Shown here piece after piece: positions 32,754-54,275 of a stretch of DNA of 64,000 nucleotides. A model generated the notes under the pieces. The model was not told the origin of the DNA and searched no databases. It was given only the letters and a program-made list of their open reading frames with translations. The DNA comes from Aliihoeflea aestuarii (GTDB lineage Bacteria; Pseudomonadota; Alphaproteobacteria; Rhizobiales; Rhizobiaceae): positions 558,001 to 622,000 of the forward strand of contig NZ_JAAAMK010000002.1 in the NCBI RefSeq assembly GCF_024105665.1. The letters run 5' to 3'. A program made the translations under genes and the position numbers. Each line of letters starts with the position of its first letter. Position 1 is the first letter of the stretch.

Positions 32754-33647
32754 TCAACCTATCAGCGCGCCATGAGAAGCCAGGCAGGTGGCGGCTGTGC
32801 GATGTCCCTTCACAGCAGCTTCGCGGGCATCTTCTCCTGTCAATCGCGCAGCCAGATATGCACCGTTGAAACTGTCCCCCGCTCCCGTCGCATCGACGAC
32901 ATTCTCGACTTCTTGCGCCCCGACCTTGAAGCACCTTTGGCCGGTGTCGACATAGGCAGGCTGCCGTCCGTTCTTGACCACGATCTCGCTCACGCCCGCT
33001 GCCCTGTAGCGGACAGCCGTCGCGGCCGGATCGTCATCGCCGAACAATTGCGCTTCGTCGCCGAAGGTCGGCAGCGCGATGGTCGACACGCGTGCGCCTT
33101 CCATGAGCCAGTGGCGCATCTCGTCCTCATCGCGCCAGAGTGACGGACGGATATTGGGATCGAAGGCGACCCGCGTTCCCCTGGAAACGGAAGCGCCGAG
33201 TACGTCCAGAAACGCGCGCCGATCCGTATCGCTCAGGATCGCGAGCGTTATGCCCGAAAAATAGACGACATCCACCGCTGAGATCGCGTTGGCCAAAGCC
33301 GATCGATCGCGCGCAAGCAGCCTGGCGGCCGATGCGTCGCGCCAATAGGTGAAGTGACGGTCGCCATTTTCCTGATGGATGAAGTACAGGCCCGGACGGC
33401 GTTCGGGAATGGTCGCGATCAGGCCGGTCTCAATCCCGGCCCCGTCGATGAAATCGCGGATCGTGCCGGAATAGCGATCCTCGCCGAGCGCAGTGAAGTA
33501 GGAAACGCGCCAGTCGGCTCCCAGATGGCGGCGCGCATACCAGGCCGTGTTCAAGGTGTCGCCGGCCACGCCCATATTCCAATTGCCCTGCGAACCGCCC
33601 GCCATCTCGATCATCGCCTCGCCGATGGACAGGAAATGCCCGCTCAT
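32754..33647 (-). CDS. kdgK: PfkB-family 2-keto-3-deoxygluconate kinase
   Basis: A 297-residue ribokinase/PfkB kinase: FLSIGEAMIEMAG at 5-17, the GVAGDTLNTAWYAR substrate loop (26-39), and DATGAGDSFNGA with the catalytic Asp258. This N-terminal pattern (GEAMIEM...GDTLNTA) is typical of KdgK, which phosphorylates 2-keto-3-deoxy-D-gluconate to KDPG. It is the last gene of the long minus-strand operon and overlaps the aldolase gene by 4 bases (ATGA). It is the second sugar-acid kinase in the operon besides dgoK. Confidence 0.9.
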   Translation of the reverse strand: MSGHFLSIGEAMIEMAGGSQGNWNMGVAGDTLNTAWYARRHLGADWRVSYFTALGEDRYSGTIRDFIDGAGIETGLIATIPERRPGLYFIHQENGDRHFTYWRDASAARLLARDRSALANAISAVDVVYFSGITLAILSDTDRRAFLDVLGASVSRGTRVAFDPNIRPSLWRDEDEMRHWLMEGARVSTIALPTFGDEAQLFGDDDPAATAVRYRAAGVSEIVVKNGRQPAYVDTGQRCFKVGAQEVENVVDATGAGDSFNGAYLAARLTGEDAREAAVKGHRTAATCLASHGALIG

Positions 33648-34297
33648 GATGCCGCCCCCGCGATATCGTCATAGGCCCTCACAGCCGAACGCGCCCTTTT
33701 ATGCACCGCCGAAGCCACGTCGCCGGGTTTGTAAAGGTTCGATCCCAAGCCGAAAACGCCGACACCGGCTTTGGCATAGGCAGCGAAGTCCTGCGATGCA
33801 ATTCCTCCAACGGCCGCCGTTACCGTATCGCCGGGCAGGACGGCACGGATGGCGGAAATGCCGGATGGACCAAGCGCGGAAGCGGGAAATATCTTGAGCG
33901 CGGACGCGCCGCAGCGCAGCGCCAGAAACGCCTCGGTCGGTGTAAAAACGCCCGGCATCGACACTAGCTTCAGTGCCGCCGCGCTTTCCAGAACGGCAGG
34001 ATCGACATTCGGGCTCACGACCAGTTGCCCACCGGCCTCCGCGAGCCGTTTGACGTCTTCGCAAGTCAGCACGGTTCCCGCACCGATCAGGCAGGATTTG
34101 CCATGCCGTTCAGCGAGGATTCGTATGGAGGCGAACGGATCGGGCGAATTCAGCGGCACCTCGATCATGTCGATCCCCGCCTCGACAAGCGCGTCGGCGA
34201 TGCCGGCGACTTCAGCGGGCGTGATGCCGCGCAAGATGGCCACGAGGCCGCGCCTCGACACCGGCCATGGCCGGCAGCTCGATGCAATTCCACTCAT
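33644..34297 (-). CDS. dgoA: 2-dehydro-3-deoxy-6-phosphogalactonate aldolase
   Basis: The 217-residue class I aldolase has the KDPG/KDPGal aldolase layout: LRGITP at 22-27, Glu46 in IEVPLNSP, IGAGTVLT at 71-78 and the Schiff-base Lys135 in ALKIFPAS. The IEVPLNSPDP variant points to the DgoA (KDPGal) branch rather than Eda. It splits the phosphorylated 2-keto-3-deoxy acid into pyruvate and glyceraldehyde 3-phosphate. It overlaps dgoK and kdgK by 4 bases at each end. Confidence 0.92.
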   Translation of the reverse strand: MSGIASSCRPWPVSRRGLVAILRGITPAEVAGIADALVEAGIDMIEVPLNSPDPFASIRILAERHGKSCLIGAGTVLTCEDVKRLAEAGGQLVVSPNVDPAVLESAAALKLVSMPGVFTPTEAFLALRCGASALKIFPASALGPSGISAIRAVLPGDTVTAAVGGIASQDFAAYAKAGVGVFGLGSNLYKPGDVASAVHKRARSAVRAYDDIAGAAS

Positions 34298-35211
34298 TCA
34301 GCCATCCTCTCCGGCCAGATACTACGCGCGGCGCGCAACAGTCCCGACAGCGCCGCATCGTCTGCGTCCATATGACGAAATTCGAAGCCTTCGTCTGCGA
34401 GCGCGCTCCGATAGAGCGCGGCGAGCGGACCGGAGGCGACAAGGACAAACTTCGATCCGCCCCCATGCAAACGCCGCGCCGCGGCGATCTCCGCTCCGAT
34501 CAACAGGCCGGACAGATGCGCCGCTCCATCCGCGCGCTCCATCTGCCCCAGAAGCTGCGATGCCCGCAATGCGAACAGCCTCGTCCAGACGAGTTCGGGT
34601 GCAGCACCAGCAATGCGAACGGCCGACCGGAAGACGTCGTTCGCTACGGTGTCGCCCTTTTCGACCGCATGTTGCAGGATCGAATATGTGGACAGCACGT
34701 CGAAAAGCTCGCCCGTCAGGAAAGTCGAGAAGCGGCTCACGATCCCATCTTCGATTTCCACCCATTTGCAATGGGTGCCGGGCATGCAGACAAGCGTTTT
34801 TCCCTGTGCAGTTCCAAGTCCCAGAAGCTGCGTTTCCTCTCCGCGCATGACGCTCGGCATCGCCGGATCGCCGTGGGAAATTCCCGGCAGGATGCGTATG
34901 TCGCCAAGGCGGCTGTCCACCATGACCGAACGATCGACGAGCTGTGCGAGTGGTGCCGGCGTTTCGACATAAGCCGCCTCACGCCAGCCCTGGCGTGCGC
35001 CCGCCATTCCGCAGATCAGCACCGGCAGGCCGGACGGCGCGCCGGTCTGCGCTAGATGACGTTCGAGCACATTTTCGAAGCCCTGCCGGACAGCGTAGGT
35101 CATGCCCTCGCGCCCGTTCGCGCGGGCAACCACTTCGCCGGCCGCGTCCACGAGCCATAACCGGAAGCTTGTCGTGCCCCAGTCGACGAGGGCGAAGCGA
35201 TGGTCGCTCAA
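34294..35211 (-). CDS. dgoK: 2-dehydro-3-deoxygalactonokinase
   Basis: A 305-residue DgoK-family kinase: N-terminal VDWGTTSFRLWLVD (8-21) binds nucleotide phosphate, GMAGARQGWREAAYV (68-82) and MPGTHCKWVEIEDG (about 143-156) are family signatures. It phosphorylates 2-keto-3-deoxy-galactonate at C6. The start overlaps the stop of the RidA gene in ATGA. Together with dgoA it would complete a De Ley-Doudoroff-type branch. Confidence 0.92.
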   Translation of the reverse strand: MSDHRFALVDWGTTSFRLWLVDAAGEVVARANGREGMTYAVRQGFENVLERHLAQTGAPSGLPVLICGMAGARQGWREAAYVETPAPLAQLVDRSVMVDSRLGDIRILPGISHGDPAMPSVMRGEETQLLGLGTAQGKTLVCMPGTHCKWVEIEDGIVSRFSTFLTGELFDVLSTYSILQHAVEKGDTVANDVFRSAVRIAGAAPELVWTRLFALRASQLLGQMERADGAAHLSGLLIGAEIAAARRLHGGGSKFVLVASGPLAALYRSALADEGFEFRHMDADDAALSGLLRAARSIWPERMAE

Positions 35212-35699: not shown

Positions 35700-36650
35700 T
35701 CAATTGTAAAGGTGGCACGCTACCTTTCGGCCACCCGTTTCGATAGCCTGCGGCGGTGTCGTCTTGCATATCGCCATAGCGCTTGGGCAACGGGTGTGGA
35801 AGGCACACCCCCTGGGTGGTGAAGCGGGGCTCGGAATATCGCCTTTCAAGGTAATGCGTTTTTGCGCCCCGCGCCGGCCCGGAATGGCCGACATCAAGGC
35901 CTTCGTATAGGGATGCAACGGCTCCTCATAGAGCGCATCGCGCGATGCCGTTTCCACGACCTCCCCCAGATACATGACCGCGACGCGGTCGCAAATGTGT
36001 TTCACGACGCTCAGATCGTGCGAGATGAAGATGTAGGACATTCCGTGCTTGGCCTTCACGTCCTGCATCAGGTTGATGATCTGGGCCTGCACCGAAACGT
36101 CGAGCGCGGAGACCGGTTCGTCGGCCACGATCATCTTCGGATTGAGGATAAGCGAGCGCGCGATGCCGATCCTCTGGCGCTGCCCTCCCGAAAATTCATG
36201 CGGATAGCGCGCGGCGTGGGCTGCCTGCAATCCGACCTCGGCGATGATGTCCATGACGCGCTCGCGTCTTTCGGCTGACGTGCCGATTTTCTGGATACCT
36301 AGTGGCTCGGTCAGAATCTGCTCGACGGTCATTCGGGGATCGAGCGAAGCGTAAGGATCTTGAAAAATGATCTGAAGATCCTGACGCAAGCGCCGCATGT
36401 CGCGTGCGCCAACTGAGGCGAGATCGACACCGTCATATTCGATGGAACCGGAAGACGGCTCGATCAGGCGGATCGCCGCGCGGCCGGTGGTCGACTTGCC
36501 GCAACCGCTCTCCCCCACCAGCCCAAGCGTCTCGCCCTTGTTCAGGACAAAGGACACGCCGCGAATGGCTTGCACCGTCTTGCGCCTGAACATGGGACCG
36601 ACAACGAAATCCTTGCGCAATTCGTTCACGCGCAGAAGAGCCTCAGGCAT
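35700..36650 (-). CDS. Oligopeptide-type ABC transporter ATP-binding protein (DppF/OppF type)
   Basis: A 316-residue ATPase with Walker [13 protein letters not shown] (about 45-56), Q-loop IIFQDPYASLDPR, signature FSGGQRQRIGIAR, Walker B MIVADEPVSALD and a C-terminal oligopeptide-transporter domain with the cysteine-rich CAFHTRCPSAM loop. I start it at ATG 36650 (GGAG upstream), overlapping the previous ATPase gene by 8 bases; the frame is open 32 codons further but that part lies inside the preceding gene. It partners the DppD-type ATPase. Confidence 0.92.
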   Translation of the reverse strand: MPEALLRVNELRKDFVVGPMFRRKTVQAIRGVSFVLNKGETLGLVGESGCGKSTTGRAAIRLIEPSSGSIEYDGVDLASVGARDMRRLRQDLQIIFQDPYASLDPRMTVEQILTEPLGIQKIGTSAERRERVMDIIAEVGLQAAHAARYPHEFSGGQRQRIGIARSLILNPKMIVADEPVSALDVSVQAQIINLMQDVKAKHGMSYIFISHDLSVVKHICDRVAVMYLGEVVETASRDALYEEPLHPYTKALMSAIPGRRGAQKRITLKGDIPSPASPPRGCAFHTRCPSAMAICKTTPPQAIETGGRKVACHLYN

Positions 36651-37647
36651 GGTGCACTCCGCTGATCTGTCGGGCCTTCCAGCATTTGACCTTTTGTCCG
36701 CCGATGACTTCGACAGGCGGATCGCGACGGCAGCCGTCGTCGGCATAGGAACAACGCGGGCGGAAACGACAGCCCCGCGGCATATCGAAAAGAGCCGGAA
36801 CCGAACCCGGGATCGTTTCGAGACGCTCCTGCCGAGTATCGAGCGAGGGAAGCGAGCGCATCAGCCCCTGCGTATAGGGATGCCTCGGAGATGACAGGAC
36901 CTCGTCTGTGCGCCCTGTCTCCACTACCTTGCCGGCATACATGACCACCACGCGGTCGCAGATTTCCGCGACGACCCCAAGATCGTGCGTGATGAACAGG
37001 ATCGAGGTTCCGAACGTGTCGCGTGCCTCCACCATCAGGTCGAGAATCTGGCCCTGGATTGTCACATCGAGCGCCGTCGTCGGCTCGTCGGCGATGATGA
37101 GGCTCGGATTACAAGCCAGCGCGATCGCGATCATCACACGCTGGCGCATACCGCCCGACAATTGGTGCGGGTAATCCGGTAGGATATTGCGAGACCGGGG
37201 AATGCCGACCTTATCCAACACGTCGAGCGCATGTTCGGTAACCGCCGCTCCTTTCAAGCCAAGATGCAACCGGATCGGTTCGGCGATCTGATCGCCGATC
37301 GGCATGATCGGGTTCAGGCTCGTCATCGGTTCCTGAAAGACCATCGCGATGTCGCGGCCACGCATCTGCCTTCGCTCGCGCGGCGGAAGCGTAAGCAGAT
37401 CATCGCCTCTGAACTCGATGCTGCCGCCCATGACGCGCGTGGTCCCTTCCGGCAGGAGCCCCATCACGCTGAGCGCGGTTATGCTCTTGCCGCACCCGCT
37501 TTCGCCCACGATACCGACGATTTCGCGTTCGCCTACCTCGATGGAAACGCCGGCAAGCGCCTGAACGTCGCCGCGATGCGAACGGAAGCCGAGTTGCAGG
37601 TCACGGATTGCAAGCATCGGCGGGGAAGTCTCGCCTGCAACGCTCAT
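36643..37647 (-). CDS. Oligopeptide-type ABC transporter ATP-binding protein (DppD/OppD type)
   Basis: A 334-residue ATPase with Walker [12 protein letters not shown] (about 49-59), signature [12 protein letters not shown] (about 164-175), Walker [13 protein letters not shown] and a C-terminal oligopeptide domain containing [14 protein letters not shown]. It overlaps the permease gene by 4 bases and the second ATPase gene by 8. Confidence 0.92.
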
Positions 37648-38588
37648 TGATTTTTCACCCTTGGATCGATGAACCCGTAGAGAATGTCGACGAACAGGTT
37701 GATGAAGATGAAGGTCAGCGCCATGAACAGCACCACGCCCTGGATGACCGGGTAATCACGCCGCGCCACCGCATTGACCAGCAATCTGCCGATACCGGGA
37801 ATATTGAACACCGTTTCGATCGCGATCGCGCCTCCCATCAGGACGGCGAAGGTGATTCCGATGACCGTGAGCACAGGAATCAACGCGTTCTTGAGAGCAT
37901 GGCGCAGGATGACCACACGCGATGGCAGGCCCTTGGCGCGCGCGGTGCGAATAAAATCTTCGCCGATGACGTCGAGCATACTGGAGCGCGTTATACGTGC
38001 GATGAAACCGGCCTGCACGAGACCGACCGAAACGGCTGGAAGGGTCAGGGACCAGATGCACGCCCAGAAGCCCTGATCGAGCGGTGTGTAACCTGCAACA
38101 GGGAACAGCCGGAACTCGACCGCGAACACGACGATGAGCATCAGCCCGAACCAGAATTCAGGCATTGAGACACCCACCATAGCGACCGTCATCGACACTT
38201 GGTCGAGAACGCCGTTGCGGTTGACCGCGGCCACGATGCCCGAGACCATGCCGACCACCACGGCGATCGTCAGCGCATAAAGCGTAAGCATGATCGTGGG
38301 TTCGAGGCGCTGCAAAATGGCGTCCATCACGGGCATTCGCAGGAAGATGGAGTCACCCAGGTCGAGCGTCGCCATGCGGCCGAGCCAGGTGAACAGTTGC
38401 ACGAGGAATGGGTCGTTGAGACCAAGCTGCTCGCGGAGCGCCTGAACCTGCTGGGCGGTGGCGTCAGCGCCAAGCATCACGGCCGCCGGATCGCCTGGCG
38501 ACAGATGCAGCAGGGTGAAGACCAGGAAAAGAGGCACGATCAGCGTCGGCAGCAGCGTTATGAGACGCCGCATGATGAAGAAAATCAT
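37644..38588 (-). CDS. Oligopeptide-type ABC transporter permease (DppB type)
   Basis: A 314-residue membrane protein starting MIFFIMRRLITLLPTLIVPLFLVF, the DppB-type first helix, with the EAA loop FIRTARAKGLPSRVVILRHALKNALIPV (about 213-240). Its start overlaps the stop of the PLP-enzyme gene and its stop overlaps the first ATPase gene, so the PLP gene is truly embedded in the transporter operon. Confidence 0.93.
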   Translation of the reverse strand: MIFFIMRRLITLLPTLIVPLFLVFTLLHLSPGDPAAVMLGADATAQQVQALREQLGLNDPFLVQLFTWLGRMATLDLGDSIFLRMPVMDAILQRLEPTIMLTLYALTIAVVVGMVSGIVAAVNRNGVLDQVSMTVAMVGVSMPEFWFGLMLIVVFAVEFRLFPVAGYTPLDQGFWACIWSLTLPAVSVGLVQAGFIARITRSSMLDVIGEDFIRTARAKGLPSRVVILRHALKNALIPVLTVIGITFAVLMGGAIAIETVFNIPGIGRLLVNAVARRDYPVIQGVVLFMALTFIFINLFVDILYGFIDPRVKNQ

Positions 38589-39769
38589 GGCGCGGCATCC
38601 TCCCGGCAGCGTTCGCCCAGAAGACCGTCCAGCGACGCGCCGGCCGCCACGCTTGTCTCGCGCATGTCCATTTCACGGTAGACCTTGAAGTCCTTGAAGC
38701 CGTGGCCGGTAATCATGCACACGATGCTGGCCTTCCGATCGATGATGCCGGCAGCGATCAGTTTTTCAGCCGCCGCCACCGAGCTCGCCGCCGTCGGTTC
38801 GGCAAAGATGCCGGTCCCGGCCGCCAGCCGGCGCATGGCAGCGCGAATTTCATCGTCGCTGACCGCTATCGCAACGCCGCACGTCTCGCGGACAAGGCGG
38901 AGAGTGTAGCTTCCGTCCTTCTCGTATCCGATCAGCGGGTCGGAGATGCCGGAGGCGATCGTCGTCGGCTCTCCCCATGCCGTCACAGCCGACAGCCCCT
39001 TGTCGTAGGCGTCGACGACGGGGGCGCATCCCTCGGCCTGCACGGCAACGACGCGTGGCATGCCTCCTGCCTTGTCGGCGAAACCTTGCACGACACCCTT
39101 GACGAGCGGCCCTGCACCGGTGGGAACCAGAACCCAGTCCGGCACGTCGCCGTTCAGTTGATCGGAGAGTTCGCGGCCGACGACGCGGAGGGCGTCCGTG
39201 CCGTAAGGATTGATGTAGGTGGTGGTCAAATTGACGTAACCCGCTTCCCGCGCGATACGCAGCGCAAGGTCGTAGGAGTTGCTGTAGTGGCCCTCTACCT
39301 TGATCAGTTGCGCGCCATAGGCCCCGATCTGCGTCATCTTCTCCAATGGCGTGCGCTGCGGCACGACGATGATCGCCGGCAGGCCGGCCCGGGCCGCATA
39401 GGCCGCCGCCGAGGCTCCCGCGTTGCCGCTCGACGCACACACCACGCCGTTTGCACCGAGAGCGATAGCACGCGTCAAGGCGGCAGCAACGTGACGGTCC
39501 TTGAAGGACCCGGACGGATTGCGCGTCTCGTCCTTGAACCACAGCCGACCCGAAAAACCGATCTCGGCAAGAAAATCATCCGGCGCGCGCAGAAGAGGAG
39601 TTTCACCTTCGCCGAGGCTGACGCGTTCGGAAATCAGCCCATCAAGGCGGGCTGTGCTTTTTTCATCGCGCACCAGTTCCAGAATGTCGCCGCAAGCGGC
39701 GCACTCGTAGATGAGCGCACACGGGTAGCGCGCACCACAATCCACGCAGGACAAATGCTCTTCGTTCAT
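38585..39769 (-). CDS. Threonine-synthase-like PLP enzyme, candidate amino-sugar-acid ammonia-lyase
   Basis: A 394-residue fold-type II PLP protein with an N-terminal zinc-ribbon (CxxC at 8-11 and 23-26), Schiff-base Lys90 in NPSGSFKDRH and the phosphate loop SSGNAGAS (113-120). By sequence it would be called threonine synthase, but homoserine kinase and other Thr genes are absent and the gene lies between two permease genes of an importer, followed by RidA and 2-keto-3-deoxy-sugar kinases. I infer a beta-eliminating ammonia-lyase acting on a 2-amino-3-hydroxy acid such as a glucosaminate. Threonine synthesis remains possible. Confidence 0.85.
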   Translation of the reverse strand: MNEEHLSCVDCGARYPCALIYECAACGDILELVRDEKSTARLDGLISERVSLGEGETPLLRAPDDFLAEIGFSGRLWFKDETRNPSGSFKDRHVAAALTRAIALGANGVVCASSGNAGASAAAYAARAGLPAIIVVPQRTPLEKMTQIGAYGAQLIKVEGHYSNSYDLALRIAREAGYVNLTTTYINPYGTDALRVVGRELSDQLNGDVPDWVLVPTGAGPLVKGVVQGFADKAGGMPRVVAVQAEGCAPVVDAYDKGLSAVTAWGEPTTIASGISDPLIGYEKDGSYTLRLVRETCGVAIAVSDDEIRAAMRRLAAGTGIFAEPTAASSVAAAEKLIAAGIIDRKASIVCMITGHGFKDFKVYREMDMRETSVAAGASLDGLLGERCREDAAP

Positions 39770-39770: not shown

Positions 39771-40646
39771 TCATCGACCTTTCAATTTCGGATCGAGCGC
39801 ATCGCGCAAACCGTCGCCGAACAAGTTCAGCCCGAGCACGGTGATCATGATGGCCAGGCCAGGAAACAGCGCCATCCACCACGCGAGCACGATGAAGGTG
39901 CGCGCTTCGGCGAGCATGTTCCCCCAACTCGGCTGCGTCGGCGGCACGCCGACTCCGAGGAACGACAGCGCCGCCTCACCAAGAACGGCGTAGGAAAAGA
40001 TGAAGGTCGCCTGGATGATGATAGGCGACATCACGTTCGGCAGCACATGCCGGAAAAGCACGTAAAAGCGTGTCGCTCCCAGCGCGAAGCACGCCTCCAC
40101 GTAGGAGAGTTCCCGCACCACCAGAACCGCGCTGCGGATGATCCGCGCGACGCGGGGCATGTAGACGATGCCGAGCGCGAGCACGACCGTCGTGCTGCTC
40201 GCACCCATGACGCCCGTCATGGCGATCGCGAGCACGAGGCCGGGAAACGACATCAGGCCGTCCATTATACGCGACAGGACCATGTCGACGCGATTGTAGA
40301 AGCCGGTGACGAGACCGATCAGGGTTCCGATACCCACAGCGAAGGCGACGATTGCGATGCCGATTGCCAACGAGGTGCGCGCGCCATGGATCACGCGCGA
40401 CAGGACGTCTCGTCCGAACTCGTCGGTTCCCAGAAGATGCGCCGCACTGCCGGGTGGCTGCAGGCGATTGGCGATGTTCAACGCATTGGGATCGAACGGC
40501 GCAATCCAATGGGCCAGAACCGCGGTCAGCACCATGAGCGCGATCAGAAACGAGCCGGCAATGACGCTGCCGCGCGAAAAGAGCAGAACCAGAAAGGACG
40601 GTTCGCGAGATGTCGATACGGCAGGCTGTTCGGCTGCAATGCTCAT
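39771..40646 (-). CDS. Oligopeptide-type ABC transporter permease (DppC type)
   Basis: A 291-residue membrane protein with the DppC-type N-terminal helix (SVIAGSFLIALMVLTAVLAHWIAPFDPN), the GTDEFGRDVLSRVIHGARTS signature (about 73-92) and the EAA loop SYVEACFALGATRFYVLFRHVLPN (about 181-204). It overlaps the regulator gene by 4 bases and precedes the PLP-enzyme gene by 1 base. Confidence 0.93.
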   Translation of the reverse strand: MSIAAEQPAVSTSREPSFLVLLFSRGSVIAGSFLIALMVLTAVLAHWIAPFDPNALNIANRLQPPGSAAHLLGTDEFGRDVLSRVIHGARTSLAIGIAIVAFAVGIGTLIGLVTGFYNRVDMVLSRIMDGLMSFPGLVLAIAMTGVMGASSTTVVLALGIVYMPRVARIIRSAVLVVRELSYVEACFALGATRFYVLFRHVLPNVMSPIIIQATFIFSYAVLGEAALSFLGVGVPPTQPSWGNMLAEARTFIVLAWWMALFPGLAIMITVLGLNLFGDGLRDALDPKLKGR

Positions 40647-41965: not shown

Positions 41966-42012
41966 ATCCGTCTCCTGCCGGATCGCCCCATTTTCGCGGG
42001 AAGCAACCAGCG

Positions 42013-45258: not shown

Positions 45259-45295
45259 TGTGGCTGCTCTCAATATGTCACTAAATGTCCATTAA

Positions 45296-46310: not shown

Positions 46311-47317
46311 GCGAGATCTCCCTGAAACGGTGAAGCAACGACGATGCAGCAATTGCCGGGCTTGACGCGTCCCGGTTGTCGCCGTGCATAGACAATCCCG
46401 TCCTGACGATAGATCAATTCGGCAGGCAGACGCATGGGATCGTCAAGGAAGTGGACACGGCCCGCAGGCTGACCGGCCGAAATTTCCGTCCCGTTCGCAT
46501 GAAATGGCTCGAAAACGCCATCACCGCTCGCCAGCACGTAGCTCTGCGAACCGGCGACTTCGAAGAGAGTACGATCCTCGCGCACAGCGCTCTTGTTTTC
46601 GACAAGTCCGAGATGAGCAAGGACATTGTGAATGCCGCGCCGGCAGATGGCCAGCGCCTCCAGCCCGACCGTACCGCCGCCGCCCATTTCGGTGCCGACC
46701 GTCGTGAGCCCGGCACGCACTGCGCTTGCCGTCGACGTGCGCGTCTCGCCGAGATTGGAAACCACGACGGTCAGCGGGGCATCGAAAGCAAGAACGGCTT
46801 CGACGTTTCGCTTCTGGTGAGCCGGATCAAGGGCCGGCTCGACGATCGCGCTTGGTAGAATATCGAGCGACGAGCCACCCGAATGCAGGTCGAGGAAGGC
46901 ATCACCATGCGGATAAACGACATCGTTCATGAAGGCCGATATCTGCTGGGAAATCGTGCCCTCGGGATTTCCAGGATAGGTGCGATTGAGGTTCAACCCA
47001 TCGACGGGAGAAGTACGCGTACCTGCCATGACGGCAGGAATGTTGAGCGCGGGAAGAACGATCAGGCACCCCTGGATGGCGCCGGGGTCGATGTCACGGA
47101 TAAGTTCCCCAAGCGCGATCGGCCCCTCATATTCGTCACCGTGATTGCCCCCCGATAGAATAAGCGTCGGCCCTGTTCCGTTCTTTACGACGGCGATCGG
47201 CAAGACCGTCGCTCCCCACGCATCGCTGTGAGGAGAATGGGGGATATTGACGGACCCGACCTGCTTGCCGTCCTTTCCGAAATCGACGGTCATATAGGCC
47301 GTGCTGCGCCTGGTCAT
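46307..47317 (-). CDS. DoeB-like deacylase (succinylglutamate desuccinylase/aspartoacylase family)
   Basis: A 336-residue zinc amidohydrolase. The HxxE ligands are His59 and Glu62 in GGNHGDEYEG and the third ligand is His145 in LDLHSGG. The closest named relative by pattern (VPHS...IPIAVVKNGTGPT, GGNHGDEYEGP) is DoeB/EutE, which deacetylates N-alpha-acetyl-diaminobutyrate in ectoine breakdown. Because ectoine hydrolase (DoeA) and the other ectoine genes are missing, another N-acyl amino compound is likely. AAGGAG precedes the ATG. It is the first gene of the minus arm, divergent from the D-serine-dehydratase-like gene. Confidence 0.88.
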   Translation of the reverse strand: MTRRSTAYMTVDFGKDGKQVGSVNIPHSPHSDAWGATVLPIAVVKNGTGPTLILSGGNHGDEYEGPIALGELIRDIDPGAIQGCLIVLPALNIPAVMAGTRTSPVDGLNLNRTYPGNPEGTISQQISAFMNDVVYPHGDAFLDLHSGGSSLDILPSAIVEPALDPAHQKRNVEAVLAFDAPLTVVVSNLGETRTSTASAVRAGLTTVGTEMGGGGTVGLEALAICRRGIHNVLAHLGLVENKSAVREDRTLFEVAGSQSYVLASGDGVFEPFHANGTEISAGQPAGRVHFLDDPMRLPAELIYRQDGIVYARRQPGRVKPGNCCIVVASPFQGDLA

Positions 47318-47377: not shown

Positions 47378-47393
47378 ATGATAACGTTGTCAT
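47378..47393. promoter_or_regulatory. LacI-type operator in the divergent intergenic region
   Basis: ATGATAACGTTGTCAT is a near-palindrome (14 of 16 positions symmetrical) with the central ACGT of classical LacI-family operators. It lies between the divergent starts 47317 and 47441; a possible plus-strand -35 (TTGGAC, 47354-47359) lies just upstream. The LacI gene at 53199 is the natural partner. Confidence 0.6.
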
Positions 47394-47440: not shown

Positions 47441-48715
47441 ATGATTTTGGGTGAAGACTTGCTGATCGATGGACGAATACGAGGCATTCCGGTCGACCTG
47501 ACATGTGAAGACGCCACCGATATAATCGGCCTGCGCCCAAGCGCCGGGGAGACGGCATTTCCGGTACTCACAGTCTCACGCAGCGCGTTCGTGGCGAACG
47601 CGCGCGCCATGTTCGCATACGCCCGGGCGGCAGACGTCGATCTCGCCCCTCACGCGAAGACACCCATGGCCCCGGAACTATGCGCTGATCTCGTTGAATC
47701 GGGAGCTTGGGGCTTGACCGTTGCCGATGCGCGGCAGGCCAGAGTACTTCTGGAAAGCGGCTTTCGGCGCATCGTCGTCGCGAACCAGATCGGCGGATTG
47801 CGCAGTGCAGAGCGTTTCGGGCGCATGTTGGGACATTATCGGAACGCGGAAATTCTCGTCTTCGTCGACAGTATCACGGCGCTCGAATCGGTTGCCGCCG
47901 CAGGGCGTGAAGCTGAACTCGAAGTCGGCGTGTTGATCGAGGTAGGCGGCGCACGAAGCGGGGCGCGCGATATCGACACGGTCCGCGAAATCGCAGCGCG
48001 CGCAGCCGCCACGCCAATGATCGAGCTTGCCGGCGTGTCCGCCTATGAAGGAGCCTCGGCTCTTGCCGACCCGCAAGCCACTCGCGAGGCGATCGGCCGG
48101 CTTCACGAACTGGCGAGGCAGGCATTCGACCTAGTCCGCCAGATGCGCCCCGCCGGCCGTCTCATCCTGTCATCGGGCGGCTCGTCATTTTTCGATCTAG
48201 TAGTGGATGATCTTGCCGGTCTCGTGCGTGCCGACAGCAATGCACGCCTTCTGTTGCGCAGCGGCGCGATTTATTTCCACGATCACGGCGTCTACAAGCG
48301 CGGCTTGGCCGCGATGGACCATCGCGGCGGTTTCGAGCCTGCGGGCCTGGGCCGTGCCGTCGACGCATTCACACCCGCGCTTCGACTATGGGCCGAAATT
48401 CTGTCGCGGCCGGAGCCGGGATTGGCGATCTGCGGCATGGGCATGCGCGACGTCTCGTTCGACCAGGACCTCCCCTGCCCGCTTTCGCTATGGCGCGACG
48501 GCGCATCGACCGACGTGTCCAGCACGGCGCGGGTTCGAAAGCTCAACGATCAGCATGCCTTCATCGACATCGGCGAAGCGGCCGATTGGCAGGTCGGCGA
48601 CATCATCGAATTCGGCATATCGCATCCCTGCACCAGTATCGACCGTTGGCGATCGATCTTCGAACTTGACGACAATGGCGCGGTGCGGCGCATCCTTCCA
48701 ACATTTTTCGGCTAG
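47441..48715 (+). CDS. D-serine dehydratase/D-threonine aldolase-like PLP enzyme (fold type III)
   Basis: A 424-residue protein of the alanine-racemase-N-terminal plus D-ser-dehydrat-like C-terminal architecture. The PLP lysine is Lys73 in PHAKTPM; near the end SHPCTS provides the His395/Cys397 zinc ligands seen in eukaryotic D-serine dehydratase (DSD1). Family members dehydrate D-serine or D-3-hydroxyaspartate, or cleave D-threonine. D-configured 2-amino-3-hydroxy acids are thus the expected substrates, agreeing with the D-aminoacylase-family gene on the other arm. GAGG precedes the ATG at 47441; a longer upstream frame would cross the operator region and is unlikely. Confidence 0.88.
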   Translation: MILGEDLLIDGRIRGIPVDLTCEDATDIIGLRPSAGETAFPVLTVSRSAFVANARAMFAYARAADVDLAPHAKTPMAPELCADLVESGAWGLTVADARQARVLLESGFRRIVVANQIGGLRSAERFGRMLGHYRNAEILVFVDSITALESVAAAGREAELEVGVLIEVGGARSGARDIDTVREIAARAAATPMIELAGVSAYEGASALADPQATREAIGRLHELARQAFDLVRQMRPAGRLILSSGGSSFFDLVVDDLAGLVRADSNARLLLRSGAIYFHDHGVYKRGLAAMDHRGGFEPAGLGRAVDAFTPALRLWAEILSRPEPGLAICGMGMRDVSFDQDLPCPLSLWRDGASTDVSSTARVRKLNDQHAFIDIGEAADWQVGDIIEFGISHPCTSIDRWRSIFELDDNGAVRRILPTFFG

Positions 48716-48721: not shown

Positions 48722-49390
48722 ATGGGAAATCTGAATTTTCGGCCGCTATGGCGCTACGAGGATGCTTTCATCGAAGGTATCCTGAACACGCTGTGGCTGA
48801 CCGTCATAGCGGCCGGTATCGGGCTGATCATCGCGATCGCATGTGCCGCGATCCTGCGTAGCGGGCCCAAACTGCTTCGCTATCCCGTCCTCGGCTACAT
48901 CGAGTTGATCCGCAACACGCCACCGATCATTCAGATCTTCATCGTCTTCTTCGTGTTTCCCGGTTTTGGCATCAGGCTGCCGCCATTTACGGCAGCTTCC
49001 ATAGCTTTGGCACTCTATTTCGGCGCATATGCTGCGGAAATCATACGCTCCGGCCTCGATTCAATTCCCCGCTCGCAGGTCGAAGCGGGTCATTGTCTCG
49101 GCATCAGCGGCTTTCAGGTGTTCATGCATGTCGTCCTGCCGCCGGCCTTGCGCAACATCTATCCCTCGATCACGAGCCAGTTCGTGCTTCTTCTTCTGGG
49201 CACGTCGATCGCCTCGCAGATTTCTGCGGAAGAACTCTTTCACACCGCAGGTGTGGTCGAGAGCAGGACGTTCCGCAGTTTTGAAATCTACGCCCTGATC
49301 GCCGGAATCTATGTCTGTCTGGTCATGGCTTTCCGTGTGTTTTTCGCCGCGCTCGGCCGTCTGGCCTTCCGCTGGCCGACACGGCGCTGA
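48722..49390 (+). CDS. Polar amino-acid ABC transporter permease (HisM type)
   Basis: A 222-residue membrane protein with about five helices and the His/Glu/Gln transporter permease pattern ELIRNTPPIIQIFIVFF and the EAA loop PRSQVEAGHCLGISGFQVFMHVVLPPA (about 115-141). It starts 6 bases after the PLP-enzyme gene, so the two are co-transcribed. Confidence 0.93.
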   Translation: MGNLNFRPLWRYEDAFIEGILNTLWLTVIAAGIGLIIAIACAAILRSGPKLLRYPVLGYIELIRNTPPIIQIFIVFFVFPGFGIRLPPFTAASIALALYFGAYAAEIIRSGLDSIPRSQVEAGHCLGISGFQVFMHVVLPPALRNIYPSITSQFVLLLLGTSIASQISAEELFHTAGVVESRTFRSFEIYALIAGIYVCLVMAFRVFFAALGRLAFRWPTRR

Positions 49391-49404: not shown

Positions 49405-50055
49405 ATGCGCTCCTTGTCAACGATCGATCTCATCGCCTTCGCGACCGGCCTGCAATATACGCTTCTGCTGGTTTTGATGGCTCTGGCCTTCGGCGCGCCG
49501 TTCGGCCTTTTCCTGGCGCTGTTGCGAACGGCGAATATGGCTGTGCTGCGTTGGGCCTCGGCACTCTTCCTTCAGGTCGTGCAAGCCGTTCCACTGCTTG
49601 CGCTTCTCATGTTCTTCTATTTCGGGCTTCCGGTCTTTCTGGGCATCCAGATACCCGCTCTGGCCGCCGTCACCGTCGCGTTCACCATCTACACGGCCGT
49701 CTTTCTCGGCGAGATCTGGCGAGGCGGCATCGAGGCGGTGAAGCAAACGCAATGGGAGGCCGCCGCCTCGCTCGGCATCAGCCGCTGGCAGCAATTCCGC
49801 TACGTCATTGCCCCCCAAGCCTTCAAGATCGCCCTGCCGGCGACGGTCGGCTTCCTCGTTCAGCTCATCAAGGGAACGTCGCTCGCCGCTGTCGTCGGCT
49901 TCATCGAACTGACGCGAGCCGGGCAGCTAGCCAGTGCAGCCACCTTCCAGCCCCTTCTCGTCTATTCCGTCGTCGCAGCGATCTATTTCGCGATCTGCTT
50001 CCCCTTGACCCTTTGGTCGCGCAATCTGGAGACCCGTCTCAATGGCTCTCGTTGA
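49405..50055 (+). CDS. Polar amino-acid ABC transporter permease (HisQ type)
   Basis: A 216-residue membrane protein with QAVPLLALLMFFYFGLP and the EAA loop KQTQWEAAASLGISRWQQFRYVIAPQA (about 112-138). It pairs with the preceding permease. GGAGG stands before the ATG, and its end overlaps the ATPase gene by 14 bases. Confidence 0.93.
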   Translation: MRSLSTIDLIAFATGLQYTLLLVLMALAFGAPFGLFLALLRTANMAVLRWASALFLQVVQAVPLLALLMFFYFGLPVFLGIQIPALAAVTVAFTIYTAVFLGEIWRGGIEAVKQTQWEAAASLGISRWQQFRYVIAPQAFKIALPATVGFLVQLIKGTSLAAVVGFIELTRAGQLASAATFQPLLVYSVVAAIYFAICFPLTLWSRNLETRLNGSR

Positions 50056-50776
50056 AATCAACAACGTCCACAAATCCTTCGGCGCCGTGGAGGTGCTGAA
50101 GGACGTCTCCTTATCCGTCGAAGAGGGCGAGATCGTTACCATTATCGGCCGGTCTGGCTCCGGAAAATCGACGCTGCTGCGTTGCATCAATGCGCTCGAA
50201 CCGATCAATTCGGGAAGGATCACGATCGAGGGCCAGCAAGTCGCCGCGGGCATGCGCAATCTGAAGGAACTGCGTCAGCGTGTCGGAATCGTCTTTCAGG
50301 CGTTCAACCTGTTTCCGCATCTGAAGGTCGAGCGCAATATCACGCTGGCTCCAACGCTGACCGGGCGCGTTTCGAAGCGTGAGGCGCGGGCGCTCGCCCT
50401 CGAATGCCTGACCAAGGTCGGGCTGGCCGAAAAAATAGACGCCTTCCCGGAACAGCTTTCCGGTGGACAGCAACAGCGTGTCGCGATCGCGCGGTGCCTG
50501 GCCATGCGCCCGCATCTGATGCTTTTCGACGAGGTCACGTCCGCACTCGATCCCGAACTCGTCGGCGAAGTGCTGAAAGTCATGGAAGACATGGCCCGGC
50601 AGGGCATGACCATGATCCTCGTCACGCACGAGATGAACTTCGCCCGCAATGTCGCGAGCAAGATCGTCTTCATGCATCAGGGCCGCGTCTGGGAAGAAGG
50701 CCCACCTTCGAAGCTTTTCACGAATCCGCAAACCCCGGAACTCAAGGCCTTTATCGGCTCGACCCGGCACAATTAA
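50042..50776 (+). CDS. Polar amino-acid ABC transporter ATP-binding protein (GlnQ type)
   Basis: A 244-residue ATPase of the GlnQ/HisP class: Walker A GRSGSGKST (about 36-44), Q-loop VFQAFNLFPHL, signature LSGGQQQRVAIAR (about 136-148), Walker B LMLFDEVTSALD (note DEVTSALD, usual for this class) and THEMNFAR. It energises the two permeases encoded just upstream. Confidence 0.94.
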   Translation: MALVEINNVHKSFGAVEVLKDVSLSVEEGEIVTIIGRSGSGKSTLLRCINALEPINSGRITIEGQQVAAGMRNLKELRQRVGIVFQAFNLFPHLKVERNITLAPTLTGRVSKREARALALECLTKVGLAEKIDAFPEQLSGGQQQRVAIARCLAMRPHLMLFDEVTSALDPELVGEVLKVMEDMARQGMTMILVTHEMNFARNVASKIVFMHQGRVWEEGPPSKLFTNPQTPELKAFIGSTRHN

Positions 50777-50804
50777 ACCCAACTAAAACAAGGAGTGAGG
50801 ATTG

Positions 50805-51602
50805 ATGTACGCTTTCAAATCGATGGTCGTGGCAGCCGCTTTCGGCATGGCCGCGTCGCTCATGCAGCCGGGTCCGGCACACGCCGACAAGCTGCAGGAC
50901 ATTCTCAATTCCGGAACGGTTCGCATAGGCGTGTTGCTCGACGTCCCGCCATGGGGGTTTACCGATGAGGAAGGCCGTCCGTCGGGTCTCGATGTCGAAG
51001 TCGCCGCTCTCATGGCAGAAGAACTCGGCGTTGACCTTGAGCTTGTCCAGCTTACCGGCACCAACCGGATTCCCAGCCTTCTGGCGAACCAGGTCGATGT
51101 GATCATATCCGCCATTGGCGCAACCTCCGAACGGGCGCAGCAGGTCATGTTCTCGCAGCCTTATGCGGCCGTCCAGCTGGGTGTCTACGGTCCGGCAAGC
51201 ATCGAATCCACCGAGGACGTCTCCGATCTAGACGGTCGTCAGATCGCGGTTGCGCGCGGGACCACACTGGACCTTTGGCTGACTGACAACGCGCAGGGCG
51301 CCAACCTGGTCCGTTTCGAGGACGTGCCGTCGACGCTCGCCGCCTATCTCGCTGGCCAGGCCGAAATGTTCGCCGAAAACAGCGCCATTGTCGTCAATGC
51401 CCAGAACGATCATCCCGGCGCGGAAATGGAACTGAAATTCACCATTCGCCAATCTCCCGCGCATGTGGGGATGCCGATGGGCGAACATAATCTGCTGCAA
51501 TGGGTCAATACGTTCGTTTTCGCCAATAAGCTGAACGGGCGCCTGCCGGAATTGCAGGAGAAATGGTTCCGCGAGGAACAAGGCGTGTTGCCGGCGCTGT
51601 GA
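50805..51602 (+). CDS. Polar amino-acid ABC transporter substrate-binding protein (family 3)
   Basis: A 265-residue periplasmic protein with a Sec signal peptide (cleavage likely after PAHA at 27) and the family-3 start ILNSGTVRIGVLLDVPPWGFTDEEG. The ligand-binding arginine region (ISAIGATSERAQQVMFSQPY) is present, indicating an alpha-amino-acid-like ligand. AGGAG lies ahead of the ATG at 50805. It is followed by two strong stem-loops. Confidence 0.93.
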   Translation: MYAFKSMVVAAAFGMAASLMQPGPAHADKLQDILNSGTVRIGVLLDVPPWGFTDEEGRPSGLDVEVAALMAEELGVDLELVQLTGTNRIPSLLANQVDVIISAIGATSERAQQVMFSQPYAAVQLGVYGPASIESTEDVSDLDGRQIAVARGTTLDLWLTDNAQGANLVRFEDVPSTLAAYLAGQAEMFAENSAIVVNAQNDHPGAEMELKFTIRQSPAHVGMPMGEHNLLQWVNTFVFANKLNGRLPELQEKWFREEQGVLPAL

Positions 51603-51645: not shown

Positions 51646-51660
51646 GAAAAAACAAACGGG

Positions 51661-51762: not shown

Positions 51763-52110
51763 ATGAGTATCAAGCGTTATCAGGTCGGCTCGCGCATGAG
51801 CCAAGGCGTCGTTGCAAATGGCGTTTTGCACATCGCCGGACAGGTTCCAAATGACCGCAAGGCATCAATCGAGAACCAGACGAAGGACGTCCTGGCGAAA
51901 ATCGACGCATTGCTTTCGGAGGCCGGGACCGACAAGTCCAAGCTCGTTGCCGTCAACGTGTTCTTGCCCAATATCGTCGATTTCGACGCGATGAATTCCG
52001 TCTACGACGCCTGGATCGATCCTGCCAATCCGCCTGCCCGCGCCTGCGTGGAAGCGCGCCTTGCCGATCCGGATCTGCGCGTCGAAATGACGGCGATGGC
52101 TCTCGTCTGA
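51763..52110 (+). CDS. RidA-family enamine/imine deaminase
   Basis: A 115-residue RidA protein, the second in the window. The essential arginine is present (R93 in PPARACVEARL), as is the VEMTAMALV C-terminal strand, so imine deaminase activity is plausible. It shares only the family pattern with the 163-residue RidA of the other arm. I start it at ATG 51763, which gives the usual family length and N-terminus (MSIKRYQVGSRMSQGVV); the upstream open frame runs through hairpins. It would clear enamines made by the PLP lyases of this locus. Confidence 0.9.
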   Translation: MSIKRYQVGSRMSQGVVANGVLHIAGQVPNDRKASIENQTKDVLAKIDALLSEAGTDKSKLVAVNVFLPNIVDFDAMNSVYDAWIDPANPPARACVEARLADPDLRVEMTAMALV

Positions 52111-52162
52111 AAATACCCAATTCCGGGCGGCTGATGACGTCGCCCGTTCAAGGAATTCGCAT

Positions 52163-53167
52163 TTGCACACCGGTCTCTTCCATTCGATCGATTTCAATGC
52201 CGAGGGCCGTCAGGACGGCTTCCTCAGCATTCCGTTCTCGATCGATCGATCGCCCTATTTTCAGGTAAAAATCCCGATCGTCCGCATCAAGAACGGCAAG
52301 GGACCGCGCCTGCTTCTGATGGCCGGAAACCATGGCGACGAATATGAGGGCAACATAGCGCTGTCCCGCCTGTGCCGACGCCTCGATGCCGCCAGCATTC
52401 GCGGCGAGATCACGATCCTGCCTTTCGCGAATGCACCCGCCGTATTTGCCGCGAAGCGACGTTCTCCGCTCGACGGAGGAAATCTCAATCGTCTGTTTCC
52501 CGGCGATCCTGCCGGCAAGCCAAGCGCGCGGCTGGCGCATTTCCTCGAACACGAGCTTTTGCCACGCCACGACGTGTTCATGGATTTGCATTCGGGCGGA
52601 ACCAGCATGGCGCACATGCCGATCGCGCTCATGGAGCGGCAGGGAAACACCGAGCATTTCACCCGAATGCTCGACCTGATGCATGCGCTTGGACTGCCGT
52701 TCGGGTTTATTGCAGAAAACGGGCCGGACGCGCCAACCTCGCTCGGCGCCGCCGGGCGCGCTGGCGTGATCGGCCTGAGTGGGGAATTCGGCGGCGGCGG
52801 AACCGTCACGCCCCTTAGCATGCGCTCAACCATGGCAGCACTCGACAACCTGCTGCATGCACTCGGCATCGTAAGCTCACCTGTACTTCTCGACCGCTTC
52901 GAGGTCGCCGAGATGCGCCTGCTGGCACTTACCAGTCACGATCAGGCCATCTATGCGACGCGACCGGGCTGGTACGAGCCTGCGCGTGACGTTGGTGAAG
53001 AGGTTCGCGCTGGCGACGTCGCGGGCTGGTATCATGATTTTACACGCCTGGATGCCGCGGAAGATGTCCTGCATTTCAGTTGCGACGGCGTCGTCCTGTC
53101 GCAACGTCTTCACACCATGTGCGAGGCTGGCGATTGCCTTGTCCAGGTCGCCGTACCATACAGTTGA
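52163..53167 (+). CDS. DoeB-like deacylase, second copy (aspartoacylase family)
   Basis: A 334-residue zinc deacylase related to the product of 46307-47317: HxxE ligands His57 and Glu60 in AGNHGDEYEG, His143 in MDLHSGG, and SGEFGGGGTV matching TEMGGGGTV of its paralogue. The start is TTG at 52163 with AAGGA 8 bases upstream. Having two such enzymes, one on each arm, suggests two different acyl substrates or stereoisomers. It lies between ridA and lacI in the plus arm. Confidence 0.86.
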   Translation: MHTGLFHSIDFNAEGRQDGFLSIPFSIDRSPYFQVKIPIVRIKNGKGPRLLLMAGNHGDEYEGNIALSRLCRRLDAASIRGEITILPFANAPAVFAAKRRSPLDGGNLNRLFPGDPAGKPSARLAHFLEHELLPRHDVFMDLHSGGTSMAHMPIALMERQGNTEHFTRMLDLMHALGLPFGFIAENGPDAPTSLGAAGRAGVIGLSGEFGGGGTVTPLSMRSTMAALDNLLHALGIVSSPVLLDRFEVAEMRLLALTSHDQAIYATRPGWYEPARDVGEEVRAGDVAGWYHDFTRLDAAEDVLHFSCDGVVLSQRLHTMCEAGDCLVQVAVPYS

Positions 53168-53198
53168 ATTGCATATCAGTTGAGGGAGAGAGCCCCGA

Positions 53199-54275
53199 AT
53201 GACGATTGGTTCTCCACCTTTCGCAGCAACGCTTGATCCGGTTTTGCGGGTCGGCACACGGATCGAGCAAACCGGCGCATCGTCGAAAAAGCGTGTGCGC
53301 ATCGAGGAAGTCGCCCGGCTCGCGGGCGTTTCGCCAATCACCGTGTCCCGCGCCCTTCACAGTCCCCACATGGTCTCGGAAGCACGCCGGCTTCGCATCG
53401 ACGAGGCCGTCACGCAAACCGGCTATGCTTCGAATCCGCATGCGCGGGCTCTGAAAAGCGGTCGATCGAATATCGTCGCAGCATTCCTGTCGACGCTTGC
53501 CAGCCAGCAATACACACAGGCAGCCGATGGTTGTGCGCGAGTGCTGGAAGATGCCGGATATCACATGGTGATGGGGCGTACCTTCTATTCCTATGCGCGC
53601 GAAACGCCGCTCATCCACGCCATCATGGATATGCGCCCGGCCGCCGCGTTCATCACCGGCGTCATGGAACTGGAGGAAAACCGCAGCTTCCTGCGCAATC
53701 TGAAGATCCCCATCGTGGAGAGCTGGGCCAACGCCTCGGATCCGATCGACATGCTCGCCGGTTTTTCCAACGTCGACGGGGTCACGCTGGTCATCGATCA
53801 TCTGGCTGCTCGGGGCTATCGAAGGCTCGGCTTTCTTGGCCGTAACAGTGGTCGCGGACAAATCCGCCAGAATGCATTCGAGCAACTGGCCGCACAGCGT
53901 GGTCTCGAGATCGCCGGCACCCTCAGCGTTCCGAATGTGGCCGGAATCGCAGACGGGCGCAGGGCATTTCGCCGGTTGATCGAGAGCGCATCGGGAATCG
54001 AGGCCGTTTTCTGCGCCAACGATCTTCTGGGAATCGGCGCCATGCTCGAAGCGAGGACGATGGGCCTCACGATGCCCGGCGACATCGCGATCGTCGGTTT
54101 CGGCGACAGCGACGTCGCCTCCGAGGTTCCTCCCGGCATGACGACCGTTTCCGTTGACGCCTACGCCCTCGGCGCGGCGGCCGGCGAGATGATCCTGACG
54201 CGCTTGAGCGGTGATCTGCCCGATGCCCCCAGCCGGATATTCCCGGTCACGCTCATCCAACGCGGATCATCCTGA
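53199..54275 (+). CDS. LacI-family transcriptional regulator of the amino-compound locus
   Basis: A 358-residue LacI/GntR-type regulator with an N-terminal tail of about 30 residues, then the helix-turn-helix VRIEEVARLAGVSPITVSRAL (about 32-52), hinge GYASNPHARALKSGRSN, and an effector domain to the end. LacI proteins usually sense sugars or sugar derivatives, so its presence beside amino-acid-type genes hints at an amino-sugar-like effector. It starts 31 bases after the second deacylase gene and ends the plus arm. The operator at 47378 is a likely target. A start nearer the DNA-binding domain is possible but no better candidate is seen. Confidence 0.92.
   Translation: MTIGSPPFAATLDPVLRVGTRIEQTGASSKKRVRIEEVARLAGVSPITVSRALHSPHMVSEARRLRIDEAVTQTGYASNPHARALKSGRSNIVAAFLSTLASQQYTQAADGCARVLEDAGYHMVMGRTFYSYARETPLIHAIMDMRPAAAFITGVMELEENRSFLRNLKIPIVESWANASDPIDMLAGFSNVDGVTLVIDHLAARGYRRLGFLGRNSGRGQIRQNAFEQLAAQRGLEIAGTLSVPNVAGIADGRRAFRRLIESASGIEAVFCANDLLGIGAMLEARTMGLTMPGDIAIVGFGDSDVASEVPPGMTTVSVDAYALGAAAGEMILTRLSGDLPDAPSRIFPVTLIQRGSS

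Follow-up and report, generated by a model that had tools for sequence, protein, structure and literature searches.

At positions 32754-54275 of a 64,000-nt stretch of the Aliihoeflea aestuarii genome (Rhizobiaceae; assembly GCF_024105665.1, contig NZ_JAAAMK010000002.1, positions 558,001-622,000; hereafter the window, whose own numbering we use), two divergent gene arms combine deacylases, pyridoxal-phosphate (PLP) enzymes, RidA proteins, importers and sugar-acid kinases, a set that may serve to break down N-acylated 2-amino-2-deoxy aldonic acids. Annotation of this region relied on NCBIfam, on Pfam for part of the genes, and on sequence searches of the PDB (Table 1). A preliminary description of this DNA had listed three deacylases, three PLP enzymes, two RidA proteins with their arginine, two sugar-acid kinases with a 2-keto-3-deoxy-6-phosphogalactonate (KDPGal)-type aldolase, and two importers, and each of these is indeed present: one Amidohydro_3 and two AstE/AspA-type, DoeB-like deacylases; three PLP enzymes, two of them PF00291 proteins; two RidA proteins which both retain the arginine that is essential in this family (within RSAV and PARACV of the translations); the kinases KdgK and DgoK with the aldolase DgoA; and importers of the Dpp and HisM/GlnQ types. 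The named enzyme genes are all intact, with zero internal stops.

The minus arm is a single packed run of 14 genes (gaps of -8 to 104 bp) which, from 47317 down to 32754, reads DoeB1, a threonine-dehydratase-like enzyme (ThrDeh), the D-aminoacylase-type gene, the Dpp binding protein, a winged-helix regulator, DppC, a threonine-synthase-like enzyme (ThrSyn), DppB, DppD, DppF, a 163-residue RidA (RidA163), DgoK, DgoA and KdgK, the last four being joined by 4-bp overlaps. Across a divergent promoter of 123 bp, the plus arm carries the deaminase, two permeases, a GlnQ-like ATPase, a binding protein, RidA, DoeB2 and a LacI-family regulator, with gaps of -14 to 160 bp. Mechanically called open reading frames (ORFs) started too early for several genes, and their starts were moved downstream: the plus-arm RidA becomes a protein of 115 aa, the deaminase starts near 47441 and ThrDeh at 46310, and the ORF at 40643-42157 becomes a 440-aa regulator with its start at 41965. 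TTG starts are used for four genes, namely D-aminoacylase, DgoK, the plus-arm binding protein and DoeB2. Comparison with other genomes shows the locus to be a mosaic of three modules: module A, a divergent 10-gene unit of ThrDeh and DoeB1 facing the deaminase, an amino-acid ATP-binding cassette (ABC) importer, RidA, DoeB2 and a GntR-like LacI; module B, the Dpp importer with its deacylase, PLP enzyme and RidA163; and module C, the kinases and aldolase.

Table 1. Predicted features of the locus and the family evidence for each (scores in bits)
Feature	Position	Strand	Evidence
Module A
ThrDeh, threonine-dehydratase-like PLP enzyme	45378..46310	-	PF00291; PRK08246 280, cutoff 331
DoeB1, AstE/AspA-type deacylase	46307..47317	-	PF24827; DoeB model 276.2, cutoff 402.7
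Predicted LacI-type operator TGATAACGTTGTCA, in the divergent promoter	47379..47392	+	palindrome
Fold-type III PLP deaminase, D-serine-dehydratase-like, OngC relative	47441..48715	+	PF14031 + PF01168; PHAKT, SHPC motifs
Amino-acid-type ABC permease	48722..49390	+	TIGR01726 above cutoff
Second amino-acid-type ABC permease	49405..50055	+	TIGR01726 above cutoff
ABC ATPase, GlnQ-like	50042..50776	+	NF007027 313, cutoff 379
Family-3 substrate-binding protein	50802..51602	+	TIGR01096 113, cutoff 256 (below)
RidA, 115 aa	51763..52110	+	PF01042; relatives annotated at ~114 aa
DoeB2, AstE/AspA-type deacylase	52163..53167	+	PF24827; DoeB model 206.5, cutoff 402.7
LacI-family regulator, GntR-like	53199..54275	+	NF052440 221, cutoff 400
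Module B
D-aminoacylase-type amidohydrolase	43630..45273	-	PF07969 (Amidohydro_3); phmmer: D-aminoacylase 295, PpOngB 260
Dpp-type substrate-binding protein	42013..43569	-	NF011942 98, cutoff 594
Winged-helix regulator of no named family, 440 aa	40643..41965	-	PF13412 marginally above gathering score; Bosea 62% identical
DppC-like permease	39771..40646	-	
ThrSyn, threonine-synthase-like PLP enzyme	38585..39769	-	PF00291; TIGR00260 186, cutoff 167 (above)
DppB-like permease	37644..38588	-	
DppD-like ATPase	36643..37647	-	
DppF-like ATPase	35700..36650	-	PRK11308 above cutoff
RidA163, RidA-like protein, 163 aa	35208..35699	-	PF14588
Module C and possible extension
DgoK, 2-keto-3-deoxygalactonate kinase	34294..35211	-	PF05035 298
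DgoA, KDPGal aldolase	33644..34297	-	NF006600 281, cutoff 207 (above)
KdgK-like PfkB kinase	32754..33647	-	NF052444 259, cutoff 400
Short-chain dehydrogenase (SDR), possible extension, 262 bp below kdgK	31760..32491	-	
2,4-didehydro-3-deoxy-L-rhamnonate hydrolase-like FAH protein, possible extension	30890..31732	-	NF053535 435, cutoff 500

Module A is, on comparison of genomes, the conserved core of the locus. Relatives of its deaminase were found in 15 of 297 genomes of the order (E<=1e-60) and in 15 of 151 genomes of the family (E<=1e-70), the own genome included in both counts, and we surveyed the neighbourhoods of 28 such loci from elsewhere within 10 kb, or as far as the fetched DNA reached, which was less for several. 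DoeB2 lies near the deaminase in 22 of the 28, RidA in 20 and both in 19, with a lactonase-like gene in 14 and the LacI in 11; a D-aminoacylase-type gene is found in six and the DoeB1-ThrDeh pair in four. The importer type of the window, RidA, DoeB2 and LacI occur all together in eight. The complete divergent unit with ThrDeh-DoeB1 recurs at 52-87% identity in two genomes of the same family (G041, G070) and two of another (G177, G286), the plus arm only is present in G294, G341, G320, Chelatococcus and two Azospirillum plasmid records, and Agrobacterium has the plus arm with its RidA gene inverted. In Rhizobium phaseoli and R. etli, the neighbours of the deaminase, RidA and DoeB2 include an ABC importer of sugar type and an amidohydrolase, which in R. 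etli is an Amidohydro_2 protein. Since the order of module A is kept in other genera, this grouping of genes is more than chance. At the thresholds used, neither of the two same-genus genomes of the sample holds the deaminase, DgoK, RidA163 or ThrSyn, and the right flank aligns with them in scattered pieces at 64-89% identity, with no clear empty site. Adjoining the LacI gene on the opposite strand (54482-57545) are acetolactate-synthase-like and succinate-semialdehyde-dehydrogenase-like genes, whose DNA is 76% identical in G070, on a different contig from the module A of that genome. In Klebsiella and Rhizobium loci (L134, L138), the deaminase, a RidA163-type protein (45-47% identical) and an amino-acid importer adjoin hydantoinase/oxoprolinase genes.

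The predicted operator of the divergent promoter, TGATAACGTTGTCA, is the one site in the window that matches TGAYAACGTTRTCA at two mismatches or fewer, where chance would give a mean of 0.21 matches (at least one in 18 of 100 shuffles). It recurs, exactly or as a variant of one or two bases, 5' of the deaminase in 10 of the 11 other type-I loci checked (the type-I importer is amino-acid-like), Agrobacterium being the exception. An exact match occurs in 21 of 286 loci, which on our reading represent the promoter of the window itself plus 12 further genomes or records, each with the same LacI; amongst the 11 genomes of deaminase relatives scored as having the LacI, nine carry the exact site and two (G113, G009) do not. 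Its placement varies: in G078 it lies directly 5' of importer-DoeB2-LacI genes, and in G083 between RidA-DoeB2-LacI genes and divergent importer-lactonase-deaminase genes. The LacI protein itself is matched best by the Pseudomonas GntR model (Table 1), the runner-up scoring 127 bits, and the effectors of Pseudomonas GntR are gluconate and 6-phosphogluconate according to the accessible part of PMC5902321.

In module B, close relatives of ThrSyn are rare at E<=1e-70 (two of 151 genomes in the family, three of 385 in the class, own included in both), with further ones in Bosea (66%) and in a Hyphomicrobiaceae metagenome-assembled genome (60%); the D-aminoacylase is found in 2 of 297 order genomes at E<=1e-120, own included, and the 440-aa regulator at E<=1e-40 in the own genome alone of those 297. 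Bosea has the regulator too, and retains the order D-aminoacylase, binding protein, regulator, DppC, ThrSyn, DppB. The N-terminal part of the regulator has no assigned family, and its predicted structure (mean predicted local distance difference test score 40) is unusable. In threonine synthase, the NPYRxEGQK motif of ThrC binds phosphate; ThrSyn has NPYGTDALR at the position of NPYRIEGQK (2zsj) or NPHRLEGQK (1uim), and for want of this motif we rejected a threonine synthase role despite the TIGR00260 score above cutoff.

RidA163 has relatives in 58 of 151 family genomes (own included). Around its best 26 non-own matches (61-77% identical) there is a DppD-like gene in 24, a DgaE-like gene in 17 and a PRK09237-like amidohydrolase in 14, names that rest on Aminobacter genes scoring 326 bits (cutoff 385) and 450 bits (cutoff 371), respectively; ThrSyn and the deaminase occur in none of the 26. 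Module B, in its gene content, is similar to a rhizobial Dpp operon (L094, L206, L210) that often has a DgaE-like ammonia-lyase instead of ThrSyn: the importer scaffold and a close RidA163 are common to both, whereas in the window a D-aminoacylase-type protein and ThrSyn replace PRK09237 and DgaE, and DgoK, DgoA and KdgK are added. In G456 (L278) a ThrSyn-like gene occurs with a PRK09237-like gene (35%) and an OngD-like RidA near a Dpp set. Deacylase and PLP types thus appear interchangeable on one importer scaffold, and it is for this reason that we read ThrSyn as a putative ammonia-lyase. The combination of a Dpp importer with RidA and a DgaE-like gene, in most cases joined by a PRK09237 amidohydrolase, is itself a widespread operon in rhizobia (L094, L206-L217). 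In L127 (13865-15082), the D-aminoacylase-type gene of G344 has a Tet(A)/Tet(C)-type efflux gene as its immediate neighbour on the opposite strand.

In module C, DgoK has no second match in its own genome at E<=1e-50 and none in either same-genus genome of the sample, while KdgK has two others in the own genome (50% and 28%) and DgoA one (30%). In the 14 DgoK-centred loci drawn from the 16 best non-own matches, DgoA adjoins DgoK in every case and KdgK in none. The SDR and fumarylacetoacetate hydrolase (FAH) genes below kdgK form a possible non-phosphorylative exit for 2-keto-3-deoxy acids. Further out in the flank lie an erythronate dehydrogenase match above cutoff (18359-19501), a dihydroxy-acid dehydratase of the PRK13017 kind (19366-21183), a kind that acts on sugar acids, and a second LacI (24371-25381) closer still to Pseudomonas GntR (300 bits, cutoff 400); the genes of the 14-32 kb flank may, with SDR and FAH, be a separate aldonate locus or supply extra exits for 2-keto-3-deoxy acids. 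We rejected an apparent DoeB2-DgoK-DgoA operon in G051. There the DgoA, DgoK and TRAP genes lie ~10.7 kb from the deaminase, the minus-strand frames of the gap have no family match on scanning and long plus-strand frames span it, so DgoA and DgoK are merely loose neighbours. In L131 (G349, 4832-12896), a glycoside hydrolase family 20 (GH20) hexosaminidase, an M81 peptidase, CutC and a D-aminoacylase-type gene face DgoA-DgoK on the other strand, which is another association of amino-sugar and 2-keto-3-deoxygalactonate genes.

The chemistry that these genes suggest has a published counterpart. As set out in the accessible part of PMC9537276, Pseudoalteromonas prydzensis has an eight-gene ong cluster for an oxidative chitin utilization pathway, in which the D-aminoacylase-like deacetylase OngB acts on N-acetylglucosaminate, the fold-type III PLP deaminase OngC releases 2-keto-3-deoxygluconate (KDG) and ammonia, and OngB, OngC and KdgK together lead from N-acetylglucosaminate to KDG-6-P; the RidA protein OngD is needed in vivo, its role being given as unknown, and the complete pathway is reported from marine and terrestrial Gammaproteobacteria and one Betaproteobacterium. 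The preliminary description had presented the amino-sugar-acid route as undescribed: the chemistry it inferred is real, and since the ong route was already in print, the novelty claimed for it falls away. For an alphaproteobacterial form we found no description in the open-licence PMC literature, nor, in titles and abstract starts of that literature, anything pertinent on glucosaminate catabolism in rhizobia; the accessible text of the GapMind paper (PMC9007349) routes glucosamine use via NagX, and the word glucosaminate is absent from it.

How close is the window to ong itself? For comparison we used the cluster of a Pseudoalteromonas shioyasakiensis megaplasmid (L135), recognised by gene order, and the residue roles given for PpOngB, including that of the specificity residue Gln298, in the accessible part of PMC12017989. 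The D-aminoacylase of the window is 33% identical to OngB of L135 and keeps the catalytic and acetamido/carboxylate residues Y194, K254, Y285, S291, D368 and R379, as well as S292; it has Gly in place of Ser290, Val and Ile in place of the leucines at 116 and 370, and no Gln298, a longer loop making the exact partner of 298 unsure. On this absence we rejected its identification as OngB. With OngC, the deaminase shares 29% identity and the PHAKT and SHPC fold motifs, and a 29-row tree places OngC in a supported clade (99/93) that excludes the window deaminase; its identification as OngC was rejected on that tree, with moderate strength given 29 rows and three long branches. The KdgK-like kinase is 27% identical to the ong kinase. 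By family, the two systems are alike in the D-aminoacylase-type deacetylase, the fold-type III deaminase, RidA (two genes here, both with the arginine) and the KDG kinase gene, and their reaction order is the same, whereas the window has ABC importers, AstE/AspA deacylases, extra fold-type II PLP enzymes and a GntR-like LacI; amongst the gene products scanned at 32754-54275 there is no GH20, sodium:solute symporter (SSS) or MurR/RpiR regulator. The window locus is then, by its protein families, predicted to work like ong without being a member of it. Similarly, the kinase and aldolase families of module C are those of the De Ley-Doudoroff D-galactonate pathway (dgoK, dgoA), whereas here DgoK and DgoA come after deacylase and PLP genes and the gene products scanned include no galactonate dehydratase.

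Our tentative reading, at a little under even chances, is that the mosaic serves to catabolise N-acylated 2-amino-2-deoxy aldonic acids, N-acetylglucosaminate being one example; among the substrate classes considered this one fares best, with roughly even odds. In this scheme, the ABC importer of module A would take up the amino-sugar acid, whether free or acylated, the two DoeB proteins would deacylate it, and the fold-type III deaminase and ThrDeh would eliminate ammonia from the 2R and 2S epimers to give the same 2-keto-3-deoxy sugar acid, the preference of ThrDeh for 2S epimers being suggested by its fold type; RidA would hydrolyse the enamine. Module B (Dpp importer, D-aminoacylase type, ThrSyn lyase and second RidA) could perform parallel chemistry on another N-acyl substrate, and in this genome modules B and C would have been joined downstream of the minus arm of module A into the one 14-gene run. 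KdgK and DgoK would phosphorylate the products, and DgoA would cleave KDPGal to pyruvate and glyceraldehyde 3-phosphate. We favour a sugar acid because the lactonase-like gene and the GntR-like LacI recur near deaminase relatives. The former is a fuconolactonase-like Amidohydro_2 (99-132 bits in the three scanned by NCBIfam, cutoff 400), the two occur together in 4 of the 28 loci (G078, G083, G113, G009), and in R. phaseoli, R. etli and G051 the importer is of the sugar type instead of the amino-acid type. The regulator, the lactonase-like gene and the importers are three partial lines of sequence evidence, none of them decisive. The locus as read also draws on the reaction order shared with ong, on the D-aminoacylase-type genes near six deaminase relatives, on the DgaE-like genes of the RidA163 loci, and on a DgoK that has no second match in the genome and whose module overlaps RidA163. 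The sugar-acid substrate of the preliminary description draws support from the first two and from the DgaE-like genes of the RidA163 loci, and loses some through a D-aminoacylase without the specificity residue of OngB; the interpretation it offered is partly supported overall, and its observation of the genes confirmed.

Several observations weigh against this reading. Foremost is module C: KdgK, DgoK and DgoA lie near none of the 28 deaminase relatives, in none of the best 26 RidA163 loci and in none of the five fetched stretches around the closest ThrSyn relatives (L009, L010, L132, L277, L278). The preliminary description had taken the kinase and PLP/RidA genes for one conserved locus, whilst naming a lack of shared conservation as what would speak against this, and because of these counts that claim fails. 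The RidA-DoeB2 core is missing from 9 of the 28 deaminase loci, and in five of these (G348, G351, G407, G050, G067) the deaminase stands without any partner from module A, which makes its family wider than the role it has there; the family also occurs in hydantoinase/oxoprolinase operons and beside an Asp/Glu racemase. The lactonase-like gene is missing in seven of the eight loci with the window's importer type, and the window's own module A importer is amino-acid-like. The lactonase, GntR, KdgK and DgaE matches all fall under their curated cutoffs, and TGATAACGTTGTCA does not resemble the site described for Pseudomonas GntR, which has an AGCGCT core (accessible parts of PMC12195362 and PMC5902321). 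OngC itself accepts D-serine and D-threonine (PMC9537276, accessible part).

Could module A instead degrade N-acyl D- and L-hydroxy amino acids, such as serine, threonine and 3-hydroxyaspartate, through its deacylases, D- and L-specific dehydratases, RidA and a polar-amino-acid importer? We give this perhaps one chance in four. The solved structure closest to the deaminase is D-serine deaminase (3gwq), members of the deaminase family occur in amino-acid contexts, ThrDeh is matched best by serine/threonine dehydratase, and the importer and its binding protein are of amino-acid type; however, the GntR-like LacI and the lactonase-like partner, alone or with that LacI, would be odd for plain amino acids, and the module C genes stand in the same run. 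Somewhat less probable still is that two unrelated loci abut here, module A on one side and, on the other, a Dpp/N-acyl-amino-acid operon with a separate sugar-acid cassette (DgoK, DgoA, KdgK, SDR and FAH) belonging to the aldonate genes of the 14-32 kb flank. The modules are indeed conserved separately, and the flank has its second GntR-like LacI and dihydroxy-acid-type dehydratase, yet module C overlaps module B by 4 bp, the gaps of the run are at most 104 bp, and RidA163 relatives frequently lie beside a DgaE-like gene.

A bolder version of the amino-sugar-acid reading, which we regard as improbable, has the locus accept 2-amino-2-deoxy aldonic acids whatever their stereochemistry. Paired deacylases and paired D- and L-specific ammonia-lyases would handle both C2 epimers, and the resulting 2-keto-3-deoxy acids would leave by three exits: KdgK for gluco products, DgoK/DgoA for galacto products, and SDR with the FAH hydrolase for 6-deoxy sugars (for example oxidised fucosamine or quinovosamine). 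Were it true, there would be an oxidative amino-sugar route outside the Gammaproteobacteria for lipopolysaccharide and chitin debris. A locus for hydroxyectoine or ectoine degradation (eutABCDE/doe with the ehu importer) is very improbable: the DoeB (sole NCBIfam match of both DoeB proteins at E<=1e-8), EutB and Ehu models do match, and a HisM/GlnQ importer is present, but all matches are below curated cutoffs (EutB 221 of 413 bits, EhuD 126 of 205; DoeB in Table 1), the gene products scanned include no ectoine hydrolase or eutC-like match, and the window differs in its LacI regulator and sugar-acid genes.

If the locus does serve N-acylated amino-sugar acids, the oxidative route of marine Gammaproteobacteria would have an alphaproteobacterial counterpart with other deacylases, other importers and another repressor. 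Its genes lie on plasmids in Rhizobium, Agrobacterium, Azospirillum and Chelatococcus, and in further relatives on large contigs. Families annotated merely as alanine racemase, aspartoacylase or amino acid ABC transporter would then gain substrates. The conserved operator also offers a way to find the regulon and to test its inducer directly.

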